Positions 10,118 through 32,364 of a stretch of DNA of 64,000 nucleotides are shown piece by piece. The position numbers and the translations under genes were made by a program. The stretch spans positions 1,240,001 to 1,304,000 of the forward strand of contig NZ_CP047954.1 of the NCBI RefSeq assembly GCF_014279895.1. Reading direction: 5' to 3'. Position 1 is the first letter of the stretch, and each line of letters opens with the position of its first letter. Below the pieces are notes generated by a model, which was not told the DNA's origin, did no database searches, and saw nothing but the letters and a program-made list of their open reading frames with translations. This stretch comes from Synechococcus sp. M16.1. Its GTDB lineage: Bacteria; Cyanobacteriota; Cyanobacteriia; PCC-6307; Cyanobiaceae.

Positions 10118-10132
10118 TGACAATGATTCTCA
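10118..10132. promoter_or_regulatory. Zur box upstream of bmtA
   Basis: TGACAATGATTCTCA fits the 7-1-7 Zur palindrome TGA-N-AAT-N-ATT-N-TCA exactly and shares its core with the znu box at 30794-30808. It lies 91 bases upstream of the bmtA start and 41 bases upstream of its -35 element, a position for activation rather than occlusion. Confidence 0.75.
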
Positions 10133-14410: not shown

Positions 14411-15430
14411 ATGAAGAGTAAAGCCATGATGAAGGTTCTCGCTGGACTCTGCCTCGTCGCTCCACTGTTTGGATGCGCCGCTGTTGGTGCGCAGGAAGTT
14501 CGAGTTTATTCAGGCCGCCACTACAACACTGACCGACAGGTTTTTAAACGTTTCAGCGAGAAAACAGGGATCAAAGTCCGCCTGATTGAAGCCACCGGAA
14601 TCTCTCTGGTGGAACGGCTCAAGCGAGAGGGAAGCAACTCCAAGGCAGACGTGATTCTGTTGGTGGATGCTGCGCGCATCAACGATGCAGCCAATGCAGG
14701 ATTGCTACAGCCGGTTCAGAGCAACACACTGAAAGCGAACATCCCCGAGCGCTATCGGGATCCATCCAACCGGTGGTTCGGATTAACAAGGCGCGTGCGG
14801 TCAATCATCATCCACCCCAAGCTTGTTGACCCCTCCACGATCAGCAGCTACAACGATCTCGGCAAACCGGAACTGAAAGGAAAGCTTTGCCTACGCAAGC
14901 GAAAAAATGTCTACAACCAATCCCTTGTTGCTGACCAAATTGTCTTGAAGGGTCAAGCCGGAGCAACAGCCTGGGTCAGGTCAATGGTGGGCAATGTCAA
15001 GCAGCCCTTCTTCTCCGGAGATACATCTCTCATTCGTGCTGTTGGCCAGGGGAAATGTGGCGTTGGCGTTGTGAATCACTACTACCTGGCACGCATGCAA
15101 GCCGGAGACAATGGCAAGGGTGATCAGGAGCTGGCAAAGAATGTGAAATTGATCATGCCCAATCCAGCACACGTGAACATCAGTGCAGCGGGCATTGCCA
15201 CCTCAGCCCAAAACAAACGGGAAGCGCTGAAATTGATTGAATTCCTCTCATCTCGGAATGGGAGCAAGACGCTTGCTGGACCAACCCACGAATACCCGCT
15301 AAAAAGTCAGGGCTCCTCAACCGTGCTGAAACAGTACGGACGATTTACCCCCGACAATGTGTCCATCAGCGCGATCGGTGCCAACCAAAAGAAAGCGATT
15401 CAAGTGATGGCGCAAGCTGGCTGGCGTTAA
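14411..15430 (+). CDS. futA: Fe(3+) ABC transporter substrate-binding protein
   Basis: A signal peptide with a lipobox-like LFGC at residues 19-22 precedes a FutA/IdiA-type ferric-binding protein. Signature parts are VYSGRHYNTD near the N-terminus (Tyr and His iron ligands), the GKLCLRKRKNVYNQSLV hinge region and VVNHYYLARM with the paired Tyr that coordinate ferric iron. Length is 339 residues, usual for the family. No permease (futB) or ATPase (futC) gene lies beside it. It is divergent from piuC and followed by ferritin, and expected to be repressed by Fur when iron is sufficient. Periplasmic iron delivery versus photosystem protection (IdiA-like) cannot be settled from sequence. Confidence 0.9.
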   Translation: MKSKAMMKVLAGLCLVAPLFGCAAVGAQEVRVYSGRHYNTDRQVFKRFSEKTGIKVRLIEATGISLVERLKREGSNSKADVILLVDAARINDAANAGLLQPVQSNTLKANIPERYRDPSNRWFGLTRRVRSIIIHPKLVDPSTISSYNDLGKPELKGKLCLRKRKNVYNQSLVADQIVLKGQAGATAWVRSMVGNVKQPFFSGDTSLIRAVGQGKCGVGVVNHYYLARMQAGDNGKGDQELAKNVKLIMPNPAHVNISAAGIATSAQNKREALKLIEFLSSRNGSKTLAGPTHEYPLKSQGSSTVLKQYGRFTPDNVSISAIGANQKKAIQVMAQAGWR

Positions 15431-15480: not shown

Positions 15481-15499
15481 TTGATAATGAGTCTCATTT
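15481..15499. promoter_or_regulatory. Fur-like box upstream of ferritin
   Basis: TTGATAATGAGTCTCATTT resembles the GATAATGATAATCATTATC Fur consensus, with GATAATGA on the left and TCATT on the right. It lies 77 bases before the ferritin start. Confidence 0.55.
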
Positions 15500-15575
15500 A
15501 ACTTGGTGCAAATGACACGCCAAGCGTGCATTTCAATCCCCCGGTATGTATCGTTTAAACATCAGCGGGAAAAAA

Positions 15576-16160
15576 ATGTTTGCAACATCTAATTCAAGTC
15601 CCTCATCTTCGATTGTTTGCGGTCCAGCCGGTCGAGCAATTGCTGAAGCAATTGATACTGATCTGCTGAATGCCATCCAAGCCCATCTCAATATGGAGAG
15701 GCAAGCCCATGCCTCCTATTTCGCGGCAGCAATCTGGTTTGCTGAACGGGAGTTGAGAGGATTTTCCCGATTCTTCCGAGATGAATCCAACAGCGAGCAT
15801 GTACATGCTGCAAAATTCGCGGAATACATCATTACTCGAGGGCAAAGCGTTGCACTACAAGTGGTCGAAGCCCCCCTGCAGAGCTGGGCATCTCCTGCAG
15901 ATGTGATGGCAACAGCATTTCAAATGGAGGTTGATGTCACAGCTTCGTTGCAACAGCTGTATTCCATGGCAGAGAGAGTGAACGACACGCGTACCACAGT
16001 GTTTCTCGACCCGATGGTGGAAATGCAAACCCAGTCAGAACATGAATTCGCGCACCTTCTTGGACGCGTGAAGTTTGCAGACAATCAAGCTGCAGCTTTA
16101 TTACTCATCGACAATGAGCTTGATCAAGGAAATAACAAGCCTGCGTCTCTTCAAGAATAG
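15576..16160 (+). CDS. ferritin (SynFtn-like)
   Basis: This 194-residue four-helix-bundle protein stores iron by oxidising Fe(II) at a ferroxidase centre. Visible ligands are the Glu in LNMERQAHASY, the Glu pair in WFAERELRG and a Glu/His pair in DESNSEHVHAAKF, plus VFLDPMVEMQTQSEHEFAHLLGR near the C-terminus, which is shared with the prokaryotic Synechococcus ferritin SynFtn. I prefer ATG 15576 because it has a better purine-rich leader; ATG 15546 adds ten residues. It follows futA by about 145 bases with a Fur-like box between them, so it is likely controlled by iron. Confidence 0.9.
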   Translation: MFATSNSSPSSSIVCGPAGRAIAEAIDTDLLNAIQAHLNMERQAHASYFAAAIWFAERELRGFSRFFRDESNSEHVHAAKFAEYIITRGQSVALQVVEAPLQSWASPADVMATAFQMEVDVTASLQQLYSMAERVNDTRTTVFLDPMVEMQTQSEHEFAHLLGRVKFADNQAAALLLIDNELDQGNNKPASLQE

Positions 16161-25754: not shown

Positions 25755-26711
25755 TTGGACAAGCTCGCCACGGCCTGGGCGATCTTTCAGGGGTTACTGC
25801 TGGAAGCCGTTCCTTTTCTGCTGCTCGGCGTTGCCATCGCAGGACTGGCCCGATGGGCCGTGCCACCGGGTGCCTGGATCGAGCGGCTCCCCAAGAATCC
25901 AGTGCTGGCACCGATCATCGGGGCCCTGATGGGTTTTGCACTTCCGGCCTGCGAATGCGGCAACGTCCCTGTCGCTCGCCGTCTGCTGGCCAGCGGTGCA
26001 CCGATGGGCACGGCCTTCGGCTTTCTGTTTGCAGCTCCGGTGCTGAATCCCATCGTGCTGGCCAGCACCTGGGCCGCGTTTCCCGATCAGCCCTGGCTGC
26101 TGGTGGCACGGCCATTGGGGGCCTTTCTGCTGGCGATCTTGCTGAGTTTGTTGCTGGTGCAACTGCCCGAGACGCAGCTCCTGGCCGCTGCGCTTCTGGA
26201 GGAACGCCGCATGAGCCAGCCCCTCAGCAACCTTGGGCTGCTGCAGCGCAGCAGTGGTGTGATCGGCGGATCACCCAGCCCCCCCAGATCCATGAACGGC
26301 AGGCGCCTCAAGGCCTGGCAGGTGCTGGATCAGAGCTGCCGCGAATTTCTCGATCTGCTGGCTCTGCTGGTGCTGGGGTGCGTGATTGCGGCCCTGGTGC
26401 AGACCTGGCTACCGCGCAGTTGGCTGTTAGCCGTGGGGGGCGCGCCGACGGCATCAATCCTGGCCTTGATGCTGCTGGCGGTGGTGGTGTCGGTCTGCTC
26501 AAGCGTGGATGCCTTTCTTGCCCTGGGCTTTGCCGCTCAGATCACCCCCGGAGCCCTGCTGGCCTTCCTGTTGCTGGGGCCCGTTGTGGACCTCAAACTC
26601 GCGGGCCTGTTCACCGTGCTGATACGGCCAAGGGCAATCCTGATCACGGCGATCGGTGCCAGTCTTGGCGTGCTGCTGATCGGTCAGTGGATCAACCTGT
26701 GGCTGCTGTGA
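25755..26711 (+). CDS. permease of the DUF318/UPF0718 (ArsP-like) family
   Basis: The 318-residue protein has eight or more transmembrane helices in two homologous halves. The first half holds FALPACECGNVPVARRL, the Cys-x-Cys-Gly signature of this permease family; the second has VVVSVCSSVDAFLALG. Members include putative organoarsenical and metal-related exporters, but substrates are mostly unknown. It starts at TTG 25755 and is followed by a TIGR03943 gene, the usual partner of this permease. The divergent gene is 5-oxoprolinase. Confidence 0.88.
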   Translation: MDKLATAWAIFQGLLLEAVPFLLLGVAIAGLARWAVPPGAWIERLPKNPVLAPIIGALMGFALPACECGNVPVARRLLASGAPMGTAFGFLFAAPVLNPIVLASTWAAFPDQPWLLVARPLGAFLLAILLSLLLVQLPETQLLAAALLEERRMSQPLSNLGLLQRSSGVIGGSPSPPRSMNGRRLKAWQVLDQSCREFLDLLALLVLGCVIAALVQTWLPRSWLLAVGGAPTASILALMLLAVVVSVCSSVDAFLALGFAAQITPGALLAFLLLGPVVDLKLAGLFTVLIRPRAILITAIGASLGVLLIGQWINLWLL

Positions 26712-26721
26712 GGGGCCGGTT

Positions 26722-27378
26722 GTGCTGAAGCGCGGAACCCTGCTGCTGCTCTGGGGCCTAACGCTGTTGTGGAGCTTCCACAGCGGACGCCTCGATCTGC
26801 TGCTTCGCGGGGTCTTCCATGGCCTGGTGGGGGTCACCGGCCTGGTCTTGCTGATGCTGGGCGTGGCCGTTCTTCTGAAAAGAGAGAAGCAAGAAGAACG
26901 CTGGCGCTGGCCCTGGCTGCTCAGCGGCGTGATGGCTGCGCTGGTGCTGGTCCTTCCGCCGAGTCCCTCCTTCAGCGATCTGGCCAGCAACCGCCCCCAG
27001 GGCCTGCCCGATCCACCGGAATTGGCCTTTGTTTTACCCCCCGAACAACGCAGCCTCACGGAATGGGTGCGCTTGCTGCGCAGCCAGCCCGATCCCGACC
27101 TTGTGGCCGGCAATCCTGTGCGCATCAGCGGTTTTGTCTGGAGGCAACCCCAGGGCCCACCGCTGATCGCCCGGCTCACGGTGCGCTGTTGCCTGGCCGA
27201 TGCCACACCCGCTGGCCTGGCCGTGGAGTGGCCGGAGTCGTTCATCCCTCAAACCAACCAGTGGTTGGCCATTGAGGGAACGATGAGCGTGCAAACGCGG
27301 AAGGAACGGCGCATCCCCGTCGTGATTCCCCAAAACATCACGCCGATTGCCAGGCCCGAGCGGCCCCTGGAACCATGA
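26722..27378 (+). CDS. TIGR03943 (YcgQ-like) membrane subunit
   Basis: Two N-terminal transmembrane helices (about 5-24 and 29-52), a third near 65-80, then a soluble domain with RISGFVWRQPQGPPLIARLTVRC-type beta strands and CC at about residue 155, characteristic of TIGR03943/DUF1980. In other genomes this protein is paired with a DUF318 permease, as here (10-base gap), suggesting a two-component transport system whose substrate is unknown. Start is GTG 26722. Its stop overlaps the next start (ATGA). Confidence 0.85.
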   Translation: MLKRGTLLLLWGLTLLWSFHSGRLDLLLRGVFHGLVGVTGLVLLMLGVAVLLKREKQEERWRWPWLLSGVMAALVLVLPPSPSFSDLASNRPQGLPDPPELAFVLPPEQRSLTEWVRLLRSQPDPDLVAGNPVRISGFVWRQPQGPPLIARLTVRCCLADATPAGLAVEWPESFIPQTNQWLAIEGTMSVQTRKERRIPVVIPQNITPIARPERPLEP

Positions 27379-28697
27379 CGCGGCGGCCCTTGCTGCTGAT
27401 GCTGATGGCCTGCGCCGCAGTTCTGGCGCAGCAACAGCTGCTGTTGCGACAGCCTCCGCGGCTGCTGCGCCTGGTGCCCCAGCTGGTGCAAAGCGGCAGC
27501 GCGGCCATGGATCTGCAGTTCAGTCGCCCGATGGATCGGCCCCAGGTCAGCGAGGCCACTCGAATCACTCCAGCCGTGCCCCATCAGTGGCTGGGGGAGA
27601 CGACAGCACTGCGGATGGTGATTGATGCGGATGTCGTGCTCACGGCTCCGCTCGAGCTATCGATCGCAGGGGAGGACCAGCGCGGGCTGCAGCTGGGGCA
27701 GCAGCAATGGTGGTGGGACCCGAGACCCTGGCTGATCGCAACACGGCCCGTGCCGGGAGGTGAGCAGGTTCAACTGCAGACGCGATCGGGGGCGTGGACG
27801 CCGATCAGTCGGATCTGGCCCGCCATCCCCAGCGTCGTCCCCCTTGGGAATGGCCGGGGCATTGCCCTGGTGGGACGCGATCAGAACGGCACCGAACAGG
27901 TGTGGTGGGACCAACTGACACCCCGCAGCACCGCCAACCGCCGGGCGGCCTTGGGGCCACCAACGCTGAGCCGCACGGAACCACTGTTGAAAGGCGAGGT
28001 GCTCTTCGCCCATCTCAGCAGCAACCTCAATGGTGATCTGCTGGTGCAGAGCGGTGGGTTCCAGCCGGGCAGTGACCAGGCCCTGTTGCTGCAGGCCGAT
28101 GGCAAACGCAAGGCTCTGGCCCTGAAACCCTCCGGCCCGATGCAGTTGCTGCCGGCGGGAGGGGGCGTGGTGATGCCCACCAGCAACGGCCTGAGCCTCC
28201 GCCCCTTGCAAGCAACCGAGCAAAAGCCGCAGATGCTGCCGGGCAGCCGGGAGCTGGGGGCCTTCTGCGGTGCCTCAGGACGTGCCGTGTTGATCCGGCA
28301 CTGGCCGGATTACAGGCGCTCGATCGAGCTGGTGGTTCCAGGGCAGGCACCAAAGCAACTGCACCTCGGTGATCAGGCGGTGCTGGGGGTGGTCTGCGAC
28401 AACCGCGGCAAACGGATCTGGGCTGTGCTCGGGCGCTGGGAGCAGCAACGGGGCAATCACGAACTGGTGCTGATCAGCGACGCGGGAGAACTGACACAAC
28501 GCAGGGCCCTGGAGCCGTGGACGCTCAAGGCGGGCAGCCCCATCCAGTGGAACCCGGTGACCAACCAGCTGTTGATGACGCTGACGCGAGCGAAGCAAAC
28601 CCATGCCCGTGCCGGCCTGATCGATGGCGACAGCTTGAAAATCATCAAGGTGATCAACACACCCATCAGCGAAGCCCAGTGGCTGAATGCGGGCTAA
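27375..28697 (+). CDS. exported or anchored hypothetical protein, beta-propeller-like
   Basis: The start overlaps the TIGR03943 stop, so it is part of the same operon. A hydrophobic N-terminus (about 1-19) acts as signal or anchor. The 440-residue rest is beta-rich, with repeated VLLQADGK-, LIRHWPDY- and VCDNRGKRIW-like blades resembling a WD/TolB-type propeller, although I cannot identify a family with confidence. It may be an accessory factor of the DUF318/TIGR03943 system. A hairpin follows at 28718-28743. Confidence 0.7.
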   Translation: MTRRPLLLMLMACAAVLAQQQLLLRQPPRLLRLVPQLVQSGSAAMDLQFSRPMDRPQVSEATRITPAVPHQWLGETTALRMVIDADVVLTAPLELSIAGEDQRGLQLGQQQWWWDPRPWLIATRPVPGGEQVQLQTRSGAWTPISRIWPAIPSVVPLGNGRGIALVGRDQNGTEQVWWDQLTPRSTANRRAALGPPTLSRTEPLLKGEVLFAHLSSNLNGDLLVQSGGFQPGSDQALLLQADGKRKALALKPSGPMQLLPAGGGVVMPTSNGLSLRPLQATEQKPQMLPGSRELGAFCGASGRAVLIRHWPDYRRSIELVVPGQAPKQLHLGDQAVLGVVCDNRGKRIWAVLGRWEQQRGNHELVLISDAGELTQRRALEPWTLKAGSPIQWNPVTNQLLMTLTRAKQTHARAGLIDGDSLKIIKVINTPISEAQWLNAG

Positions 28698-28717: not shown

Positions 28718-28743
28718 AAAAAGGAGGGCAATGCTGCCCTCCC
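28718..28743 (-). terminator. terminator of the zinc-locus porin
   Basis: GGAGGGCA (28724-28731) pairs with TGCCCTCC (28736-28743). On the minus strand it is followed by six T residues and lies 32 bases past the porin stop codon. It may also end the plus-strand operon. Confidence 0.8.
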
Positions 28744-28774: not shown

Positions 28775-29806
28775 TTAGAAGGTAAATGTCACGCCAGTGC
28801 CGACATGGTGCTGCCAACCTTCACCCCAGCCCGATGCATCTTCCCAGGTGTAAACATGCTGCCAGTGCAGAAACAGCGTCGCATCACCAACGGGTACCGA
28901 AAGTTCGATTTCACCAGCGTAATCCGTGCGCGAATCCAACCCTGCGTAGCTGCCTGGAACATAAAAGCTAGGGCCAGCTTCAATCATCAAAGAGATTTCA
29001 TCACCACCAAATGTGAAGCCCAGACCCACACGAGGATCGGTGTAGTTGCCCACATACATCCCATCGGATTCCCAACCCTGACGGTGATCCACCGACAGAT
29101 AAACACCATTCACCAGATCCTCGATGCCATCGCCAAGGGCGAAATTCACATCTCCATCACCCAAAGCCCAGATCGCCTTGGCGCCGAGCTCATTCTTCAA
29201 GCCCTGAATGTCCTCACCCTGGTCTTTGGTGACGTAGTAGGGGTTCCAGGACAGCTCAAAACTTAAGCGGTCGTTAGGTGCATATCGGGCCTGGAGGAAG
29301 CCCTTGATGTCGGTGCGCTTGAAGTCGGTGTCATGGCCGTGGTCGTCATGACCTTTGTGATCGCCATGATCGTCGTCATGGTCGTCTTCGTGATCATCGT
29401 GGTCGCCATGATCTTCATCATGGTCGTCGTGATGATCATGGTCCTTTTGATCATCATCATGGTCATCGTCGTGATCATCGACGTGAACCTTGCCGTAGAA
29501 GTGCTCAGCCTCTCCCCAAACCAAAGCGGGGCCAATGGCAGCTTCGATTGCAAACGAGCCGCCATTGCCCAGGCCCCACTCGAAAACGCCACCAAAAAGA
29601 CCATCGAGGGCGTAATGCCTTGGCTGATCTTCGAGATTGTTGTCGAAACCGCCATGGCCCTCGATGGTGAGAATGGGCGTGAAGTCGAAATCACCAGCTT
29701 CAAGGGCTTCACCCGATCCACCATGGGAGCCATGGGCTTCGGCAGGTGAAATGGAAGCGAACGGGCTCAACAGAAGAGCCAGCAGGGCAAGGCGTGAACG
29801 GAACAT
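28775..29806 (-). CDS. outer-membrane beta-barrel protein with His/Asp-rich loop, putative zinc porin
   Basis: A signal peptide (about 1-24) is followed by an early His cluster (HGSHGG), beta strands, and a loop at about residues 107-161 made almost entirely of Asp and His (16 His in 55 residues). The rest is barrel-like, ending VGTGVTFTF with the C-terminal Phe typical of outer-membrane proteins. The loop should bind divalent metal. It lies 58 bases downstream of znuA, so cotranscription with znuA from the Zur-controlled promoter is likely. It may capture zinc at the outer membrane. Family known only as marine cyanobacterial; function inferred from context. Confidence 0.82.
   Translation of the reverse strand: MFRSRLALLALLLSPFASISPAEAHGSHGGSGEALEAGDFDFTPILTIEGHGGFDNNLEDQPRHYALDGLFGGVFEWGLGNGGSFAIEAAIGPALVWGEAEHFYGKVHVDDHDDDHDDDQKDHDHHDDHDEDHGDHDDHEDDHDDDHGDHKGHDDHGHDTDFKRTDIKGFLQARYAPNDRLSFELSWNPYYVTKDQGEDIQGLKNELGAKAIWALGDGDVNFALGDGIEDLVNGVYLSVDHRQGWESDGMYVGNYTDPRVGLGFTFGGDEISLMIEAGPSFYVPGSYAGLDSRTDYAGEIELSVPVGDATLFLHWQHVYTWEDASGWGEGWQHHVGTGVTFTF
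29324..29488. repeat. low-complexity Asp/His coding repeat
   Basis: The minus strand here is built from GAC/GAT and CAC/CAT codons in short imperfect repeats of D-D-H and D-H-D. It encodes the metal-binding loop of the putative zinc porin. Confidence 0.85.
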
Positions 29807-29864
29807 GAGACGAGACGGAAGAAATAAGAAGAGAGAAGAGGAGAGAAGAGGACGAAGCGTTAAG

Positions 29865-30782
29865 TCACCGGATCGATGACCACTGCGCGTTCAAAGCATT
29901 GGCTCCAGCGGTGTCACAGGAACCGCCCTGGCCCTTGACGATCGTGCAGACGTTGAGGGTCGCCGTCGAAACAGCATTCCGACCAGCAGCAATGCCCTCC
30001 CCATACAGCGGTGTGGACGCAATCGGTAATCCCGTGGCCTTGCTGATGCGCCTCAGGGTTTTGTTGGGAGTGGCCGCAGGGGAAAAGATGGTTTTCGCAC
30101 CGGATGCTTTCACCTCCTGAGTGATTGATTTGAGGCTGGAAGGCCGCAAAACGCCACCGGTGGTGTGGCTGTCCAACATCGCGATCTCAACAAGTCCAAA
30201 GCGATCAGCGAGATGGCTGTAGGTCCTGTGATCAGTCACCAGGACCCGCTGCGCTGAAGACAAAGATCCGAACTGCTTGGCTTCCCAGCTCTGAAGTGCA
30301 TTGAAGACAGCCACAGCCCGCGCTGTGCGTTGCTGCAAGGCCGCACGATCGTTGGCCGCCAGCACGGGGGACAAAGAGCGGGAGATGACCCGCACCATCG
30401 CAGCGGAATTGGCCGGATCGTGCCAGACGTGGGGGTCGCCGCCGCCATAGGACGGCAGAGCGACTTCACCAACCGCCACCACTGTTCCTGGTGACTTGAG
30501 CTTTCTGGCGGAAGGGGTCAACCCAAAACCGATGTGCAAGACCAGATCGCTTTTGGCGATCTGGCTGCGATCACTGGGCTTCAAGCGATAGGAATGGGGA
30601 TCACCACCAGGAGGGATCAGGCAGGTGACTGAGGCGGCACCGGCAGCCAGGGTCTTGGTGAGGTCGCACAGCGTGCCGTCGACGGCCACCACCACAGGTT
30701 GTGCCGCATGGGCGGGAACAACGGCCGCACCAAGGGCAAGGACAACACCAACACCCGCTGATCGAGCCAGGAAAGCACGCAT
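29865..30782 (-). CDS. znuA: zinc ABC transporter, substrate-binding protein
   Basis: The 305-residue cluster-A1 solute-binding protein has a signal peptide (about 1-26), then DPHSYRLKPSDRSQIAKSD with the first metal-binding His, GDPHVWHDPANSA with the second, VTDHRTYSHLADRFG with the third, and a terminal Asp/Glu site near the STPLYGEG segment. The long His-rich loop seen in some ZnuA proteins is short or absent; the porin downstream carries such a stretch instead. Start is ATG 30782; two upstream codons (GTG start) are in frame. A Zur box lies 11 bases upstream, so strong zinc repression is expected. Divergent from znuC-znuB. Confidence 0.93.
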   Translation of the reverse strand: MRAFLARSAGVGVVLALGAAVVPAHAAQPVVVAVDGTLCDLTKTLAAGAASVTCLIPPGGDPHSYRLKPSDRSQIAKSDLVLHIGFGLTPSARKLKSPGTVVAVGEVALPSYGGGDPHVWHDPANSAAMVRVISRSLSPVLAANDRAALQQRTARAVAVFNALQSWEAKQFGSLSSAQRVLVTDHRTYSHLADRFGLVEIAMLDSHTTGGVLRPSSLKSITQEVKASGAKTIFSPAATPNKTLRRISKATGLPIASTPLYGEGIAAGRNAVSTATLNVCTIVKGQGGSCDTAGANALNAQWSSIR

Positions 30783-30793
30783 GACCACCTAGG

Positions 30794-30808
30794 TGAGAAT
30801 GATTATCA
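30794..30808. promoter_or_regulatory. Zur box between znuA and znuCB
   Basis: TGAGAATGATTATCA fits the 7-1-7 Zur consensus TGA-N-AAT-N-ATT-N-TCA exactly. It is 11 bases from the znuA start and 79 from the znuC start and should control both directions. Confidence 0.85.
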
Positions 30809-30887
30809 TTTTGCTGAGCACTTGGTCCCTTGCCAACATGGGGTGTGCAAAACATCAAGAGGCCCACATCCGGCCACTGAAGAGTTG

Positions 30888-31577
30888 ATGAGCCAATCGT
30901 CGTGCGTGCTGAGCACAACCGAGCTGTGCTTCAGCTACGGGGGTCGCAAGACCGTTGACCGCGTCAACCTGCAGCTTCAAGCAGGGACGCTATCGGCGCT
31001 GGTGGGTCCCAACGGAGCCGGAAAGTCAACGCTGTTGCACCTGCTCGAAGGCCGACTGAAACCCAGCCAGGGAACGGTCAACTCCAGCAAGCCCATCGGC
31101 CTGATGCCCCAGCGGGCCGCCATTGATTGGTCGTTTCCGATCACCGCCCGCGACGTGGTGCAGCTGGGGGCGCCCAGAAAGGGCAAAGCCACAGCAGCGG
31201 ACTACTGCGATCAGCTGCTGGAGCGGGTCGGCATGGGAGCCATGGGATCTCAACGCCTCAACCAGCTCTCCGGCGGCCAGCAACAACGCGTCTTGCTGGC
31301 CAGAGCGTTGATGCAGCAGACCGAGATCCTGCTGCTGGACGAACCCTGCAGCGCCATCGATCCACCAACGCGTGAGCACCTGCTCAAGGTGATGCGGGAT
31401 CAGGCGGAAGCCGGCCAGACGCTGCTGGTGAGCAGCCACGATTGGGGCAGTGCCCTCGACAGCTACGACCAGGTGGTGGTCATGGATGGCCAAATCCTGG
31501 CCAACGGATCACCCGACACGGTCCGCGAAAAACTGAGCGATCTGACTTGCATGATGGGGAGTTCCTGCTGTGGCTGA
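30888..31577 (+). CDS. znuC: zinc ABC transporter, ATPase
   Basis: The 229-residue ATPase has Walker A GPNGAGKST at residues 40-48, the LSGGQQQR signature, and Walker B ILLLDEPCSAID, with a switch His in LLVSSHDWG. It powers zinc import with ZnuB and ZnuA. Start is ATG 30888; the frame is open to 30822 but the extension has no similarity. It is divergent from znuA across a Zur box and overlaps znuB by 8 bases. Confidence 0.94.
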   Translation: MSQSSCVLSTTELCFSYGGRKTVDRVNLQLQAGTLSALVGPNGAGKSTLLHLLEGRLKPSQGTVNSSKPIGLMPQRAAIDWSFPITARDVVQLGAPRKGKATAADYCDQLLERVGMGAMGSQRLNQLSGGQQQRVLLARALMQQTEILLLDEPCSAIDPPTREHLLKVMRDQAEAGQTLLVSSHDWGSALDSYDQVVVMDGQILANGSPDTVREKLSDLTCMMGSSCCG

Positions 31578-32364
31578 GCCCGACATCTGGTGGCTTCTGC
31601 CACTCACGATCTCGCTGCTGATCGGAGCCATCTGTCCGGCCACGGGAGCGTTGCTGATCACCCAACGCCGGGTGTTGCTGGCCAACCTGATGGCCCATTC
31701 CGTTCTGCCCGGCTTGGTGATCGCCCTGGCCATCGGCATCGAGCCAAGCATCGGAGGCCTGATCAGTGGACTGCTGGGCGCCCTGGTGGCTGAACGCCTG
31801 AACCGGCGCTTCAAGGGCAGGGAAGAAGGCGCCATGAACGCCGTGCTGGCGGGCTTCACGGCCCTGGGCGTGCTGTTGGTTCCCTTGCTGGATGCCCGGG
31901 TGGACCTGGAAACGATCCTGTTCGGCGACCTGCTTGCCGCCAACACAACAGATCTGCTGCGAACAGCGCTTTCAACCTGCGCTCTGATCGCGATGGTGGT
32001 GTGGGGCTACCGCGACCTGGTGTTCGTTGGCATCGACCCTGAGGGAGCAGCCATCGCCAAACGACCGGTGCTCCTGATCCGGCTGATCTGCAGCCTGATC
32101 ACCGCCCTGGTGGTGATCAGCGCCATCACTGCCGTGGGGGTGATTCTGGTGATTGGCCTGCTGTGCGCTCCGGTGCTGATGCACGTGGAGCGCAGCCGAA
32201 GCCTGAAGGAACTCATGCTGCGCAGCGCGAGCACGGGGCTGCTTCTGTGTGGTGGCGGAATGATGCTGGCGATTGCTGTTGACCTGCCACCGGGCCCACT
32301 GATCGGAACACTGTGCTTGGCGCTTCTGTTCACCTACAGGGTCAACACTGCAGAGCAACAGTGA
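31570..32364 (+). CDS. znuB: zinc ABC transporter, permease
   Basis: The 264-residue protein has about eight transmembrane helices in the ABC-3 permease pattern (ANLMAHSVLPGLV, LLGALVAERLNRR, DLVFVGIDPEGAAI, GVILVIGLLCAPVL). It forms the zinc channel with ZnuC. GTG start at 31570 overlaps the znuC stop, a usual arrangement for the pair. No gene follows on this strand; a convergent gene begins 15 bases on, with GAAGCC-containing short inverted repeats between them. Confidence 0.93.
   Translation: MAEPDIWWLLPLTISLLIGAICPATGALLITQRRVLLANLMAHSVLPGLVIALAIGIEPSIGGLISGLLGALVAERLNRRFKGREEGAMNAVLAGFTALGVLLVPLLDARVDLETILFGDLLAANTTDLLRTALSTCALIAMVVWGYRDLVFVGIDPEGAAIAKRPVLLIRLICSLITALVVISAITAVGVILVIGLLCAPVLMHVERSRSLKELMLRSASTGLLLCGGGMMLAIAVDLPPGPLIGTLCLALLFTYRVNTAEQQ

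Follow-up and report, generated by a model that had tools for sequence, protein, structure and literature searches.

A conserved, zinc-linked family of predicted outer-membrane barrels with an Asp/His-rich loop encoded beside znuA in picocyanobacteria

In Synechococcus sp. M16.1, the gene that directly follows znuA encodes a protein with a barrel-like end and a loop made mostly of aspartate and histidine, which raises the question of whether this protein has a part in bringing zinc across the outer membrane. We analysed the locus within a window of 64,000 nucleotides, belonging to a genome of 2,112,236 bases in one contig, and compared it with related loci of other cyanobacteria.

The znu locus and its zinc regulation

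The barrel gene (28775..29806, minus strand) encodes 343 amino acids and comes after znuA (29865..30788, minus strand; PF01297, E 6e-42; likely ATG start 30782, judged from the sequence), whose product is a zinc-binding protein. On the other side, znuC, encoding the ATPase (30822..31577, plus strand; likely ATG start 30888), and znuB, encoding the permease (31570..32364, plus strand), were identified by profile searches. The divergent znuA/znuC promoter region contains a Zur-like box, TGAGAATGATTATCA (30794..30808), and position 30808, the end of the interval of the original prediction, is the edge of this box and therefore part of the same system. An intrinsic-terminator-like hairpin with a T run lies just 3' of the barrel gene (28722..28743, minus strand), in line with a znuA-barrel transcript; 8 such sites occur in the region against 2.6 expected.

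We also looked for the same box elsewhere in the genome. Only four sites lie within two mismatches of the palindromic core, which we chose ourselves and which Fur sites share, and the znuA/znuC site, with one mismatch, is the best of them; the promoter of the putative znuA-barrel transcript thus carries the box expected of a Zur-regulon member, at one mismatch from that chosen core. Two further sites are found by the metallothionein gene bmtA and between genes for an iron-type binding protein and a ferritin. The first (10118-10132) is upstream of bmtA (PF02069; 9857-10036, minus strand), a gene activated by Zur in WH8102 according to PMC9337993, so that the window contains counterparts of the two principal Zur targets described in that paper. 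The second, with the same core (15482-15496, between the binding protein at 14411-15430 and the ferritin at 15546-16160), is probably a Fur site.

The regulation of the positional counterpart of the barrel gene is already in print. According to PMC9337993, a zur mutant of WH8102 shows derepression of the cluster synw0968-0973, and low zinc raises the expression of synw0971 (znuA) and synw0972; the paper describes SYNW0972 as "uncharacterized", Zur-repressed and likely co-transcribed with znuA. The arrangement is the same as in our window: SYNW0972 adjoins znuA, znuC and znuB lie beyond znuA, and a single Zur box is located in the znuA-znuC interval (PMC9337993). We take the window gene, by its position, as the counterpart of SYNW0972, and the zinc-dependent expression on which the original prediction hung is in this way documented for that counterpart, under control of both Zur and zinc (PMC9337993). 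A three-gene run (25755-28697, plus strand), convergent with the barrel gene, encodes an ArsP_1 permease, a DUF1980_C protein and a 440-aa protein; the last gave no Pfam match and may be, by position, the counterpart of SYNW0973, reported to be responsive to both Zur and zinc (PMC9337993).

The link with zinc uptake extends over the family. We collected 76 barrel loci and excluded 10 with partial barrels; in 63 of the remaining 66, some of which share one genome, znuA immediately precedes the barrel gene on the same strand, at a distance of -19 to 146 bases, in agreement with the originally noted position beside znuA. The three exceptions are L050, cut by a contig edge, L053, with no znuA in the stretch covered, and RCC307 (L076, L198), where the barrel gene directly follows a Fur-family gene that we read as zur and no znuA is near. 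A zur-like gene occurs in 23 of the 76 barrel stretches searched, which differ in length, and a palindromic box with at most three mismatches from TGATAATNATTATCA lies beside znuA in 47 of the 63 loci, 15 of the 63 having less than 150 bases covered upstream.

Asp/His tracts bind several metals. It is therefore conceivable, though quite improbable, that the barrel serves nickel, cobalt or copper and that its zinc control is incidental; the gene's place beside znuABC and zur-like genes, and the zinc-dependent expression of the counterpart (PMC9337993) both argue against it.

The leader of the barrel gene deserves a separate comment. The 58 bases that separate znuA from the barrel gene (29807..29864, minus strand) are 88% pyrimidine when read on the coding strand and contain no SD-like motif, in line with the original description. 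SD-like motifs are also absent from all 63 orthologous leaders checked and before 40 of the 48 long ORFs of the window (with crudely set starts); their absence is therefore ordinary, and the possibly unusual control of translation that had been suggested from it is not supported. On sequence grounds, it is the pyrimidine richness that appears unusual and conserved: the 40 bases before the barrel gene reach 0.93, the highest among the 48 window ORFs, and orthologous leaders have a median of 0.72 (58 leaders) against 0.50-0.55 before four neighbouring genes. As the related sequences are not independent and the neighbours' starts were set at the longest ORF, we consider this richness a lead only. 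A role of ribosomal protein S1 at such a pyrimidine-rich leader is possible.

Predicted fold, conserved residues and the TonB question

The protein begins with a signal peptide (residues 1-24; 29735..29806, minus strand; boundary set by eye), followed by the mature N-terminus HGSHGG, in which H25 and G26 are nearly invariant in the family alignment, and it ends with Phe. A 12-stranded barrel region (residues 40-343; 28778..29689, minus strand), delimited by predicted fold, hydropathy and structure alignment, is interrupted by the Asp/His loop (residues 108-160; 29327..29485, minus strand), placed by sequence and AlphaFold2 between predicted strands 3 and 4. The loop contains 16 His and 26 Asp in 53 residues, and the DNA encoding it is made of imperfect tandem repeats; with an assumed His background of 2%, at least 16 His in a stretch of 53 residues has a chance of about 5e-15 per stretch. 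The count of 16 His and the abundance of Asp given in the original prediction are both right, while its length of 55 residues should be brought nearer to 53 by the bounds used here.

AlphaFold2 was run on alignment A1, obtained from the 66 loci by dropping the window locus (L001), repeats and one sequence with X, which left 59 distinct references, and by excluding the near-copies L027, L042, L045, L046, L048, L049 and L066, which left 52 references plus the window protein. The resulting model has 12 strands at moderate confidence (mean pLDDT 75, pTM 0.70), the low-confidence parts being the Asp/His tract, modelled as disordered, and the signal region. A short-loop relative with 56% identity, L056 from Prochlorococcus sp. 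AG-363-P01, showed the 12-strand pattern too (pLDDT 76, pTM 0.74), using a 45-row alignment (A2) with L056 first and the window protein included. VIA-align matched the barrel model to solved outer-membrane barrels with Z up to 18.4, autotransporter domains being among the matches, and with Z of 16.9 for the COG4313 channel 4rl8, 16.1 for KdgM and 11.6 for PcoB; for a predicted structure, we read these matches as a common fold and no more. The contrast in family-averaged hydropathy between odd and even positions ranges from 0.9 to 4.1 units across the 12 strands and is smallest in strands 2, 7 and 11.

Considering the signal peptide read by eye, the 12 amphipathic strands in two models and the C-terminal Phe, the window protein is predicted to be an outer-membrane barrel, and the barrel-like end seen at first belongs to a predicted fold to which solved barrels align. 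Barrels of this kind have their two ends in the periplasm, which would put the loop that connects strands 3 and 4 outside the cell, as far as strand count and parity in the model indicate; the original prediction had left its side to structure prediction.

We asked where the conserved residues fall. Invariant positions over the 53 aligned members include H51, H64, H102, H314, H334 and E49, as well as D68, E101, D166, D257 and D295. Of the 12 strand His, Asp and Glu conserved in at least 90% of members, 11 point into the lumen and 10 are in the outer half by our own assignment, whose lumen side rests on hydropathy and is set in part by the same conserved residues. E99, E101, H102 and H108 are found at the base of the loop, and the conserved acids D219, D226 and D269 are in predicted periplasmic turns. 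The Asp/His/Glu-rich core of the loop itself ranges from 5 to 96 residues over the 66 loci; as it has only 5-9 residues in 9 of them, the core function cannot depend on a long loop. With the barrel core conserved and the loop variable in length, the core seems to be the essential part and the loop an adjustable extra.

These observations bear on whether the protein could be a zinc buffer of the surface or outer membrane without a channel, in which the loop would store or capture zinc for general porins and the barrel would be a mere anchor. A hypervariable, disordered loop is what such a buffer would be expected to have. However, the His and acids with the highest conservation line the lumen or belong to the loop base instead of the loop, and members with a very short loop retain these lumen and loop-base residues, so that we consider a buffer of this kind rather unlikely.

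The original prediction also proposed a TonB-independent route. Searches for the TonB-dependent receptor Plug domain found none in the window protein or in its genome (positive in 3 of 14 control genomes), and a search for the MotA/ExbB domain found none in the genome (positive in 8 of 14 controls). A TonB route is therefore unlikely, in agreement with that proposal. The same result weighs on a further possibility, namely that the barrel is the receptor of a zinc carrier and docks a secreted zinc-binding protein or zincophore. An outer-membrane receptor of this sort has been proposed for ZepA of Anabaena (PMC10957091), but the receptors considered in that paper are TonB-dependent and neither Plug nor ExbB was found in the genome of the window; moreover, the predicted extracellular loops other than the Asp/His loop are short, 4 to 14 residues. 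A carrier receptor is thus improbable.

Distribution of the family and the histidine-rich loop of ZnuA

We searched a class-wide sample of 195 genomes, including that of the window, and found the barrel in 10, all of them in the window's own taxonomic family, Cyanobiaceae; within this family, 46 of 151 genomes have it. A close-pattern scan of bacterial and archaeal genome contigs gave matches only in picocyanobacterial or unspecified cyanobacterial sequences, and the related loci include Synechococcus, Prochlorococcus, Cyanobium and Vulcanococcus. Pfam and NCBIfam profile searches provided no family name for the window protein. Several weak matches (Nop14, Zip, CDC45, ZrgA and a PDB Complex I chain) were discarded as reflecting the composition of the Asp/His tract, as were Blast matches between the barrel and loop-bearing ZnuAs; the NCBIfam model of ZrgA zinc uptake, NF047873, scored 17.7 bits against a cut-off of 185, over residues 108-157, that is, over the tract. 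Taken together, we regard this conserved, zinc-linked family of predicted outer-membrane barrels as real.

One profile matched by part of the family comes from phages. PF24653 (Phage_OMP), a cyanophage outer-membrane-like barrel, is matched by 35 of the 53 members at E 0.1 or better; when ten members were scanned singly, 6 matched in their C-terminal part (residues ~200-320), 2 of the ten above the cut-off. Unlike the barrel family, PF24653 covers about 120 residues and has no His tract (in one phage protein), and the window protein is itself unmatched, a PF24653 search of the whole window genome, barrel gene included, having found nothing. A scan of viral contigs yielded no barrel homologues, phage records giving weak local matches alone (E 0.04 or worse). 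In phage S-PRM1 (L235, 1444-1824), a single-domain PF24653 protein is encoded on a stretch that also carries a plastocyanin gene, and in RCC307 (L198, 2594-3364) a second small barrel-like protein with two PF24653 stretches adjoins the first.

We also tested whether the ZnuA proteins differ between genomes with and without the barrel. The original prediction described the window ZnuA as lacking a long His-rich loop, and indeed it has 8 His only and no such loop; the genome encodes a second PF01297 protein, also loop-less, which looks manganese-type. For the comparison, a loop was defined as at least 5 His between positions 97 and 124 of the window ZnuA, where loop-less proteins have 2 or 3. 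This allowed classing 112 of the 151 genomes, leaving out G221, which has the barrel and no ZnuA nearby, and 38 barrel-less genomes with no or weak ZnuA matches. Usually one ZnuA-type place was considered per genome and a second in 8 genomes, and more copies may exist.

Results showed that 42 of 44 barrel-linked ZnuAs have no usual His-rich loop, the loop being present in 2. Among the 45 classed barrel genomes, 36 have only a loop-less ZnuA in the places examined, 7 have a second, loop-bearing one too, and G087 and G246 have only loop-bearing ZnuAs, adjoining the barrel. The barrel-less genomes are loop-bearing in 64 of 67 cases, with 6 to 50 His in the compared region, two of them in a conserved DPHxWH stretch; the three without a loop are G222, G232 (counted once by genome, twice by locus) and G309. 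Outside the family, ZnuA-like proteins occur both with and without the loop, and the barrel was not found there. Seven ZnuAs (L120-L123, L125, L128 and L129, from genomes of 1.7-2.0 Mb) have a very long loop region of 192-230 residues, with two Asp/His tracts flanking a segment of about 130 residues; in L122, Pfam detects ZnuA only. In addition, a HupE/UreJ-type protein is encoded beside znuA in L139 (1919-2521), a locus of a barrel-less genome with a loop-less ZnuA.

A loop-less ZnuA accompanying the barrel is what a relocation of the His loop, out of ZnuA and onto the outer membrane, would predict, and no more than that. A ZnuA tree with 120 rows places the barrel-linked proteins in one group together with three unlinked ones (SH-aLRT 85), with four label changes, two of them forced by starred branches; this leaves between 2 independent contrasts (starred branches) and 4 (all branches), for which a sign test is not significant. 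Within barrel loci, the His of the ZnuA loop region and those of the barrel loop are uncorrelated (Spearman 0.09, p 0.49, 59 loci). As the association amounts to about one evolutionary event, it proves no functional exchange, and as the loop swap has no independent support, we present the pattern as one of lineage. The relocation originally suggested gains support from a family-wide pattern (42/44 and 64/67), though one with roughly a single evolutionary origin.

Comparison with known systems and a proposed route for zinc

By analogy, the nearest working model for the window barrel is PcoB/CopB (PDB 7pge). PMC9210255 proposes that this barrel, with its conserved acidic residues, conducts ions as an electronegative funnel and serves copper import; TonB is unmentioned in the text. 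PcoB further has a disordered His/Met-rich segment, which matters, and a periplasmic partner in its operon (PMC12509749). The two differ in that PcoB handles copper and has its His-rich segment at the N-terminus, while the window barrel has it in an outer loop. Judged by sequence, the window protein is not a PcoB: PcoB/CopB is absent from the 9 Pfam families matched by any of the 53 members (E 0.1). In the fold comparison, 7pge aligns to the model with Z 11.6, and many unrelated barrels with a higher Z.

Import or export by PcoB is disputed between PMC9210255 and PMC12509749, and we considered whether the window barrel might likewise release or sequester metal, as an export or protection device. 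One group argues so for PcoB, the Caulobacter protein with its His/Met-rich disordered segment being reported in copper efflux (PMC12509749). On the contrary, SYNW0972 is up at low zinc and in a zur mutant (PMC9337993), the opposite of an efflux gene, which makes this reading highly improbable here.

Two other systems share part of the theme. In Synechocystis, a His-rich loop of ZnuA itself (PDB 1PQ4, 2OV1) is said to raise zinc near the binding cleft (PMC8786288), whereas here the loop is on the barrel and ZnuA has none. The second system was also compared by profile, and the ZnuD profile left a trace match in 1 of 53 members (E 0.054). ZnuD/TdfJ proteins carry out Zur-controlled outer-membrane zinc import with His-rich surface loops, and they are 22-stranded, plugged and TonB-driven. 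The window barrel has in common with them the Zur-linked zinc theme and a His-rich loop, and differs by a genome in which no Plug domain was found.

We favour, with a probability of about 0.6, a zinc-gathering, TonB-independent barrel channel that feeds ZnuA as part of the Zur response. According to this proposal, the barrel would be made from the znuA transcript when zinc is scarce, and its disordered Asp/His loop would bind many zinc ions weakly at the cell surface, raising the local concentration and residence time of zinc. Zinc would then be handed to the conserved group of His and acidic residues lining the lumen's outer half, diffuse through the barrel and, once in the periplasm, be picked up by ZnuA, which has no loop. 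As ATPase-driven import by ZnuABC keeps the gradient inward, no TonB would be needed. Surface exposure, zinc binding, the pore and the direction of transport are what we infer for the barrel, and zinc could already enter via common porins. A stronger version is put forward tentatively, at somewhat less than even odds: these barrels would be a zinc-channel family not recognised before, working without TonB, and their zinc-gathering Asp/His loop would have been transferred to the cell surface from the binding protein of the periplasm.

Within the literature searched, in the portions accessible to us, no description was found of the barrel fold, the loop, the conserved lumen residues or the ZnuA loop pattern. 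The main text of PMC9337993 mentions no fold, barrel, outer membrane or TonB for SYNW0972, and the terms SYNW0971 and SYNW0972 are absent from Cox and Saito 2013, where tables use bare numbers.

In conclusion, the family offers a specific, Zur-controlled candidate for the crossing of the outer membrane by zinc in picocyanobacteria apparently without TonB transporters. With its named residues and a removable loop, it makes the question of zinc entry directly testable in a widespread marine phototroph. If the proposal is true, it would provide another example, alongside PcoB, of metal-ion passage through a dedicated barrel without TonB, and would mean that zinc capture by Synechococcus, abundant in the oceans, begins outside the cell.
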